40,364 bases of DNA from Propionibacteriaceae bacterium (GTDB lineage Bacteria > Actinomycetota > Actinomycetes > Propionibacteriales > Propionibacteriaceae): contig JAISJO010000080.1 in the NCBI GenBank assembly GCA_031261485.1, positions 1-40,364 of the forward strand, in the 5' to 3' direction. Below the pieces are notes generated by a model. That model saw only the letters and a list, made by a program, of their open reading frames with translations. It was not told where the DNA came from and searched no databases. The number at the start of each line of letters is the position of its first letter. Position 1 is the first letter of the stretch. This document shows, piece by piece, positions 17,638 to 19,037 of the stretch. The translations under genes and the position numbers were made by a program.

Positions 17638-17667
17638 AGTGTACGGCATGAAAGACCATGCGCCCAA
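17638..17667 (-). promoter_or_regulatory. infB operon promoter
   Basis: Minus strand TTGGGC (17667-17662), 18-base spacer, TACACT (17643-17638), giving a leader of about 130 bases. The -10 lies in CGTACACTAGAC, and the identical 12-mer precedes tRNA-Glu at 20565-20576 or so, supporting a strong housekeeping promoter. The rest of 17502-17774 shows no gene. Confidence 0.6.
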
Positions 17668-17774
17668 GCGCGACCCGCACGAGGCCATGCCCGGTCCCCT
17701 ATTTCGTTCGTCACCGACTCCAAGCACACCACTTTGATCAGCACTTCCCTATTCGACGTGGGACGATTGGTGAC

Positions 17775-18443
17775 ATGGACTGGAATCTGGTCATCCCCTT
17801 GGCTGTAGGCGCTTTGGCTCTCGTGGCTGTGGGCTTCTTCGTGGACCGAGGTGTGTACAAGCGGCGACGGGCCATCCTCGAATCTCCCCCCGACAGTCCC
17901 ATTCTTGACTCGACCGAGCCTCCCACGTACATCGATGCCACCACCCTCGTCTCGGCCCCTCCTGAGCCCTTGAGCGACCAGCGCCGTCAAGACATTCTGA
18001 CTCGCCTCGAATCAGCACCGTCAGTCAAGGGTGGCTATGCGTCCCCAGACTTCATTACCGACCCTGCGTCCGGATGGTCTGTGGTGGAGGATGCGCGAGT
18101 CCTCGTCGTGGATGAAGCCAGCGACCCCCGCGATGTGTACTCAGTGCTGGCCAGTGTCCAGGAAAGTGGCCGAGGCTTCGTGCTGGTCTCCCCCGTCCTA
18201 GGCGATGAGGTGGTGGAGTGGCTGGCGATGAACGCCAAGTCAGGAGTGGCGCGATGCCTGGGCGTGCGCGTCGATGACCTGAGCGAGGCTGAGTCCGCGG
18301 CATCAGCAGTCCATAGCCAGGTCACGACGTGGGCGGATGTGAAGTCTGGGTATGTCCCCGCACCAGTCATCGGGAGTTGCGCGGCATGGGTGGCCGGGAA
18401 GAATACCAGTTGGGTGCTGGACCACCCGTTCGACACACCCTAG
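17775..18443 (+). CDS. Membrane-anchored protein with a lone GroEL apical-domain-like region
   Basis: A 222-residue protein starting MDWNLVIPLAVGA. One hydrophobic span (about 4-23) is followed by an RGVYKRRR stop-transfer, so the rest is probably cytoplasmic. A Pro/Ser-rich linker (36-66) leads to residues 86-180, which follow the GroEL apical domain closely in order and spacing: GGYASPDFITDP (GroEL RGYLSPYFINKP), VVEDARVLVVDE, a VYSVLASVQESGR helix (MLPVLEAVAKAGK), VLVSPV, and DEVVEWLAMN (EALATLVVN). The equatorial and intermediate domains, and so the ATPase and ring contacts, are absent. I infer a tethered minichaperone or a scaffold. The weak ribosome site leaves the start slightly uncertain; the frame is open 39 codons further upstream without family features. 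Confidence 0.75.
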   Translation: MDWNLVIPLAVGALALVAVGFFVDRGVYKRRRAILESPPDSPILDSTEPPTYIDATTLVSAPPEPLSDQRRQDILTRLESAPSVKGGYASPDFITDPASGWSVVEDARVLVVDEASDPRDVYSVLASVQESGRGFVLVSPVLGDEVVEWLAMNAKSGVARCLGVRVDDLSEAESAASAVHSQVTTWADVKSGYVPAPVIGSCAAWVAGKNTSWVLDHPFDTP

Positions 18444-18517: not shown

Positions 18518-18871
18518 TTATCCCCATCCCAATTCATCCAAATGGTCATCATCAATGCCGAAGAAATGGGCGATCTCATGAATGACGGTTATCCGAATCT
18601 CCTCAATAAGTTCTTCACGAGTTTCGCACATGCGCTTGAGGGGATTACGAAAGAGGAAAATGGTGTCGGGAAGGACGCCACCATACATGGAATCCCTTTC
18701 AGACAGAGGAACCCCTTCATACAGTCCCAGCAAGTCAGCCTCCGAGTCAGGGGGTTCGTCTTCAACGAGGACGACGACATTATCTAGGACATTCATGAGA
18801 GCTTCAGGAATGCCGTCCAGTGCGTCCCCTACCGCTTCATCAAAATCCTCATCGGATACCTCAACTGCCAT
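18518..18871 (-). CDS. Minimal zincin-type metallopeptidase family protein
   Basis: A 117-residue acidic protein of the small zincin family common in actinobacteria. The zinc motif HEIAHFFGIDDDH (98-110) fits HExxHxxGxxD/H. Also typical are DNVVVLVEDEP (30-40) and the DTIFLFRNPL strand (69-78). I use ATG at 18871 (MAVEVSDEDF). A TACAGT -10-like element ends 7 bases before it, so the transcript may be leaderless; a GTG three codons upstream is the alternative. Proteolytic activity has rarely been shown for this family, so its function is open. Confidence 0.8.
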   Translation of the reverse strand: MAVEVSDEDFDEAVGDALDGIPEALMNVLDNVVVLVEDEPPDSEADLLGLYEGVPLSERDSMYGGVLPDTIFLFRNPLKRMCETREELIEEIRITVIHEIAHFFGIDDDHLDELGWG

Positions 18872-19037
18872 GGTATTCACTGTACTCTGAACGAATTACA
18901 TCGGTGCAATTCCCCCAAAGGTATTGTGGCCAATCGGCACTTGCACAACGAAATTGCTTCTCATCACCGGGTTGCCAGGCTCGGCCCGGTCACATAATCT
19001 CGGGTCATCACTCGTGAATTCGCGTAACACGAGTAGT

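Follow-up and report, generated by a model that had tools for sequence, protein, structure and literature searches.

A predicted membrane-anchored GroEL apical domain encoded as a free-standing gene in a Propionibacteriaceae bacterium and its relatives

We analyzed a stretch of 40,364 nucleotides from a Propionibacteriaceae bacterium (GenBank assembly GCA_031261485.1, contig JAISJO010000080.1), hereafter the window, focusing on the plus-strand gene at 17775..18443, which encodes 222 amino acids plus a stop codon. In its product, a single predicted N-terminal span with a basic stop after it leads through a proline-rich linker to a GroEL apical domain. The transmembrane helix is predicted at residues about 4-24 (17784..17846, +) from a mean KD of 2.69 and the surrounding charges, and the structural model has a helix at 6-36; the linker, delimited in the family alignment, covers residues about 38-67 (17886..17975, +) and carries the motif P-x-Y-[LVI] (P50, Y52). 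The apical domain occupies residues about 84-216, equivalent to GroEL about 195-334 (18024..18422, +), as given by homology searches, hhalign, Foldseek and the alignment. Within it, model and alignment place the equivalent of GroEL helix H at 18126..18164 (+; model helix 118-130), where L237 is kept as L125 and L234 is Y122, and that of helix I at 18204..18242 (+; model helix 144-156), where V264 corresponds to M152 and N265 to N153. An alternative, longer ATG frame opens at 17658, and the alignments of relatives start at the equivalent of 17775. The gene is divergent from infB, recognized by eye on the minus strand upstream, and convergent with a minus-strand gene for a PF06262 zincin-like metallopeptidase (18518-18880). 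Also downstream are a plus-strand gene for an SH3-domain protein (PF08239, 19051-20514), which is probably secreted, and genes for tRNA-Glu, tRNA-Asp and tRNA-Phe. No piece of an equatorial domain was seen beside the ORF, whose flanks are the infB and zincin genes. Many relatives carry a TGnCAnnnT box in the region matching 17753..17774 (+), while the window sequence itself (locus L001) lacks a match. This pattern, picked after inspection of the sequences, lies 4-8 nt 5' of the ATG/GTG start region in 30 of 52 family members, as against 69/10400 and 28/4650 (0.6-0.7%) in controls, and suggests that the family genes may be transcribed leaderless.

A preliminary description of this ORF had read residues 86-180 as GroEL apical motifs in their proper order, with the equatorial domain missing, and had proposed a profile search and a structure prediction as checks. 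The motifs are indeed in that order, and their similarity to GroEL goes beyond chance. In a phmmer search of the PDB, the window protein alone matched the apical domain of Thermus thermophilus GroEL (1srv, E 2.2e-6, query residues 86-166), followed by many other GroELs. The NCBIfam GroEL models also matched (best E 1.3e-7), over the apical stretch only, and their scores lie far under the whole-protein cut-offs for that reason (TIGR02348, 23.8 bits against a curated cut-off of 582.1). Pfam gave no significant match to the window protein (best DUF5942, E 0.16). An alignment of the window protein with ten relatives from named contigs (A4, 11 members) was more sensitive: its profile found T. thermophilus GroEL in the PDB (E 2.7e-19) and, over profile positions 81-222, a reconstructed ancestral chaperonin (E 1.3e-19). 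All 11 members of this alignment matched NCBIfam GroEL at E <= 1 (best 7.7e-19), and two of the 11 reached Pfam Cpn60_TCP1 (best E 0.012). Moreover, profile-profile comparison by hhalign with seven GroEL apical domains returned a probability of 99.3% (E 1.6e-20, 141 columns, 20% identity). Chance similarity was rejected, as phmmer, NCBIfam, the family profile and hhalign all match GroEL. In a viral structure library, eight matches were obtained at E <= 0.001, six of them named GroEL/Hsp60 and two nameless, both of chaperonin length.

The predicted fold gives the same picture. An AlphaFold2 model built on the family alignment reached a pLDDT of 87.4 and a pTM of 0.71, and Foldseek ranked 1dk7, an isolated apical domain of GroEL, first (E 1e-12, TMt 0.84), while 1jon (GroEL 191-345) reached TMt 0.86 at rmsd 1.7; GroEL is present in the training data of AlphaFold. 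A second model, of the Microlunatus parietis member, had a pLDDT of 90.2 and matched 1srv at TMt 0.85. Both checks thus returned what the preliminary description had anticipated, with an apical-domain fold predicted for the window protein and for a second member. The homology it proposed for residues 86-180 stood, but the end point did not: with relatives included, the similarity extends to about residue 215, or GroEL about 191-335, and the C-terminal residues of the ORF align near GroEL 335-340. Its statement that the equatorial domain is missing holds across the 52-member family alignment: the equatorial ATP-binding and intermediate domains are both absent, and matches of GroEL profiles start near GroEL 193. 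The protein is not a GroEL by membership, as the defining domains are absent, and we regard its identity and fold as a free-standing GroEL apical domain as almost certain.

We then examined how widely such proteins occur. A first survey of 40 related genomes found free-standing relatives in the genus of the window and in other genera of its family, apart from full GroELs. A profile made from an 11-member alignment (A1) and run over 198 genomes of one Propionibacteriales family (f1) found free-standing members in at least 131 of them (listed rows, E <= 1.1e-22), counted by eye when the match covers the N-terminal module or the frame is too short for GroEL, and with a second copy in genome G075 excluded. 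A more divergent member occurs in genus g4 (G021, E 8.5e-18). In the genus of the window, at least 11 of 19 genomes carry a member among the matches listed; for genera g2, g17, g22, g27, g32, g33 and g34 no free-standing member was found among the matches listed, so the gene is either missing or too divergent there. The ten named-contig members come from Microlunatus, Micropruina, Granulicoccus, Propionicicella, Friedmanniella and related MAGs, and in eight of the ten the last 100 matched residues agree exactly with those of members from f1 genomes. We infer that f1 is the Propionibacteriaceae in a broad, GTDB-like sense; NCBI taxonomy places Micropruina in the Nocardioidaceae. Across the class, the profile of the N-terminal module matched two of 246 genomes, each belonging to f1, in a survey that scored 21 candidates per genome, with kinship given for all but 224 of the 246. 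In a search over 391 genomes of the order, weak members from sister families could lie below the matches listed. Over 60 genomes of the phylum, most frames that matched the apical profile were of GroEL length; three were intermediate (398 aa in G656, 360 aa in G681 and 458 aa in G675), and those in G663, G647 and G679 are short and sit at a contig end or close to it. A 216-aa frame in G661, considered as a free-standing apical protein outside the family, was rejected, as it reads as a full GroEL over several frames, and a 414-aa frame of the same genome (locus L106) is likewise an interrupted GroEL. At locus L105 of that genome (3958-5582, +), the GroEL gene runs across several frames, through either frameshifts or sequencing error.

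Members of the A1 and A4 alignments are only 27-35% identical to the window protein. Values of dN/dS ranged from 0.14 to 0.57 in 14 pairs (by a simple counting method, with dS above 1 in two pairs), and by this measure the family is under purifying selection. The genome of the window also holds two GroEL-length frames (539 and 573 aa); therefore, the apical protein is an addition to GroEL and not a replacement for it. Two divergent free-standing apical genes were observed in G075 (C93:102-758 and C71:1956-2573), which may reflect a paralogue, transfer or contamination. One TGA lies inside the match in each of G080:C6:37214-37831 and G058:C3:42462-43076, either as broken genes or as matches that run past the end.

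To describe conserved features, 52 distinct members were retained from 71 family rows by removing rows that share their last 120 residues, and were aligned to E. coli K-12 GroEL. They span about GroEL 191 to about 335, and loop 281-285 is absent in 51 of the 52. The geometry of the groove was judged from this alignment only. Groove positions other than Y203, V264, N265 and R268 are those that we take to be substrate or GroES sites from GroEL mutagenesis. Residues were hydrophobic at F204 in 98% of members, at L234 in 94%, at L237 in 100%, at L259 in 92% and at V264 in 100%, with lower values at I230 (88%), Y199 (81%), V263 (50%) and Y203 (13%). The position of N265 is asparagine in 52/52 and is the top-scoring column of the family. 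Y203 is replaced by a charged residue in 39 members (D in 21, R in 12 and E in 6), and R268 is arginine in 11 of the 52 only. In passages of PMC10723157, V264, N265, Y203 and R268 of GroEL are given as contacts to non-native Rubisco. The window protein is somewhat divergent, with Y at L234, W at T261 and M at V264. In addition, a family-specific conserved patch near the C-terminus (Y193, G192, P195, G200, W205 and W213), together with Y52 of the linker, lies outside the H/I groove, and its conservation hints at a possible second interaction site.

The N-terminal region is conserved in character as well. One hydrophobic span with a mean KD of at least 1.6 was found in 51 of the 52 members, and in 51 of 52 the charge after the span is more positive than that before it (-1 before and +3 after in the window protein). 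Second stretches above the same KD threshold occur in 16/52 members and are taken to be buried strands of the apical domain. The preliminary description had proposed an N-terminal span followed by a basic stop-transfer, which is borne out as a single predicted span across the family; it had also noted that the equivalents of Tyr199 and Phe204 are kept and that Tyr203 is Asp, and the alignment agrees (Y199 is Y88, F204 is F93 and Y203 is D92), with the change at Y203 being family-wide. Tethering to the membrane is predicted, and we consider it very probable. Under the positive-inside rule, the flank richer in positive charge stays in the cytosol, and the apical domain is therefore predicted to be cytosolic (N-out/C-in). 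In the linker, the P-x-Y motif is near-invariant among the 51 members having a residue at those columns (P in 48, Y in 50). At locus L014 (G007, a frame of 397 aa), the stretch between span and apical domain is enlarged by a P-, T-, D- and H-rich repeat, so linker length is tolerated.

Gene neighborhoods differ between lineages. In 24 of 42 distinct genomes the PF06262 zincin is close to the apical gene (some loci being short). Of the 31 loci compared, 26 have a cluster of SH3-type ORFs, co-stranded with the apical gene with a single exception among 28. In other genera, a pair of DUF202 genes comes after the apical gene: immediately downstream and co-stranded in 8 of 42 distinct genomes (with 37-81 nt up to the matched part, or in-frame), and about 1 kb downstream in three further genomes of the 42; at L086, a yidH frame begins 9 nt past the apical stop. 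One MAG has the apical domain and DUF202 in a single open frame (L011 of G020, 1492-2619, +), as a possible fusion or an assembly error. At E <= 1e-4 and in 12 good-quality genomes of the genus of the window, no DUF202 was found and the apical gene persists; a single weak DUF202 match (6.6e-5) was obtained among all 19 genomes of that genus, and in two g14 genomes DUF202 is located elsewhere than the apical gene. No apical gene was found within about 1.5 kb on each side of 15 DUF202 loci outside the operon (12 of them in sister families), nor, over the same distance, at seven zincin loci, mostly of sister families. As DUF202 goes unmatched in those 12 genomes and the outside loci show no apical gene, the linkage is a lineage feature and not a requirement; strict dependence on DUF202 was rejected on the 0 of 12 good genomes of that genus. 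No neighbor gene was found to be common to every lineage looked at.

Based on these results, we propose that the protein is an apical domain anchored in the membrane and facing the cytosol, a naturally occurring equivalent of the engineered minichaperone, and that it would bind hydrophobic segments independently of ATP; we give this reading as a whole a probability of about 0.5. The groove between helices H and I would bind exposed hydrophobic protein segments at the inner face of the membrane, the clients being nascent or misfolded membrane and exported proteins. Binding would be reversible and would need neither ATP nor a ring or lid. The linker, being flexible, could let the domain reach out, and numerous copies sharing the membrane plane could stand in for the avidity of the ring. 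In its favor are the five groove positions that are hydrophobic in 92-100% of the 52 members (F204, L234, L237, L259 and V264) and the invariant N265. However, the substrate contact Y203 is hydrophobic in 13% of members, V263 in 50%, and R268 is kept in 11/52, and the conserved patch with linker Y52 suggests another binding job; taken by itself, a chaperone-type function is tentative, and we would place it a little short of even odds. Those same residues make a dedicated adaptor a serious rival, since Y203 is changed and a second conserved patch is present. The apical fold would then bind one specific membrane partner, a peptide tail or a protein, instead of serving as a general chaperone. The aspartate, arginine or glutamate at Y203 in 39/52 members, the loss of arginine at R268 in 41/52 and the place of Y193, P195, G200, W205, W213 and Y52 among the top-scoring columns all point that way, and PIKfyve, with a CCT-type apical-like motif inside a lipid kinase, offers a precedent. 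Against such an adaptor stand the retained hydrophobic H/I groove and N265, and the lack of a neighbor gene constant over all lineages looked at; we consider it less likely than not, if well worth considering.

Two further roles would tie the protein to known membrane or chaperonin machinery. Membership in a DUF202 (YidH/YidG-type) membrane complex, as a subunit or as a factor in its assembly, would fit the adjacency in 8/42 genomes, the three more at about 1 kb, the 9-nt gap at L086 and the single frame at L011, but we consider it very improbable in view of the 12 good genomes without a match in the genus of the window, the separate location in two g14 genomes and the 15 DUF202 loci outside the operon that have no apical gene. 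Alternatively, the protein may offer GroEL/GroES a docking or modulating site at the membrane, its groove taking up the GroES mobile loop or passing substrate to soluble GroEL. In the absence of seven-fold avidity, a single site should bind GroES only weakly, which counts against such docking, as do the loss of Y203 in most members and the fact that no groES/groEL linkage was noticed in passing among the loci read. GroEL-length genes in the same genome, and helices H and I that also form the GroES interface (PMC4973282), speak for docking, which we hold to be very improbable. Finally, a decaying GroEL fragment or a spurious ORF could be suspected from the low identity of relatives to the window protein (27-35%) and from the TGA inside the match in two of the 131 members listed. 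Against this stand the dN/dS values in 14 pairs, the box found in 30/52 members and in 0.6-0.7% of controls, the family's own N-terminal module and its wide distribution; a broken GroEL fragment was rejected because no equatorial piece was seen beside the ORF and because of distribution and selection. Provided that the alignments are right, decay or a spurious ORF is effectively refuted and scarcely credible. Returning to the membrane-anchored chaperone, the most novel form of the proposal is that the family is the first natural ring-less chaperonin derivative to work as a chaperone, tethered, ATP-independent, catching hydrophobic segments at the cytoplasmic membrane, having arisen in the ancestor of one actinobacterial family and being retained beside complete GroELs; this possibility we put forward with less than even confidence.

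The apical domain alone has so far been known mainly as an engineered laboratory fragment, and such fragments have been the basis for arguing whether a lone apical domain, lacking ring, ATP and lid, does anything useful in vivo. In our literature search, which left most subscription journals and preprints outside, no natural free-standing or membrane-anchored bacterial apical-only chaperonin was found among the papers listed; the forms described in them are engineered fragments and the apical-like motif of PIKfyve. An excerpt of PMC12619734 has the word "minichaperone" in a reference on small heat-shock proteins. Whether a lone apical domain is useful in the cell becomes testable, through gene deletion and the capture of clients, in a bacterial family where selection has preserved this very fragment, apparently membrane-bound and next to complete GroELs. 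The family is, besides, a bacterial case of a piece of a chaperonin being used again as a module, and its many divergent sequences can separate what groove binding needs from the constraints imposed by the ring.

Compared with known systems, the family shares with GroEL/Cpn60 of group I a homologous sequence and predicted fold over about 191-335, with helices H and I and N265 kept. It differs from GroEL in having neither the equatorial ATPase nor the intermediate domain and nothing alignable past about 340, in lacking loop 281-285 (51/52), in a mostly charged residue at Y203, and in the added span and linker. Most lateral ring contacts of GroEL lie in its equatorial domain, according to passages of PMC9138447. 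PIKfyve is alike in carrying a chaperonin apical-type domain outside a folding ring, in a protein acting at membranes; its domain is of the CCT type (group II) and belongs to a large eukaryotic six-domain lipid kinase (both from passages of PMC8758139), whereas the family protein matches group I GroEL and has the apical domain as its only recognized domain besides the anchor. The closest likeness in boundaries is with the engineered minichaperones, GroEL 191-345 and GrAD 190-333 (in passages of PMC9138447), which are nearly the same and also present the apical domain by itself (52-member alignment; 1jon, TMt 0.86). Passages of that source describe the isolated GroEL apical domain as a monomer that is active without ATP, and these together with passages of PMC4973282 report that it binds exposed hydrophobic segments in vitro. 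By analogy, the protein described here plausibly works like a minichaperone; unlike the engineered fragments, it is natural, predicted to be membrane-anchored, conserved, and about 20% identical to E. coli GroEL.
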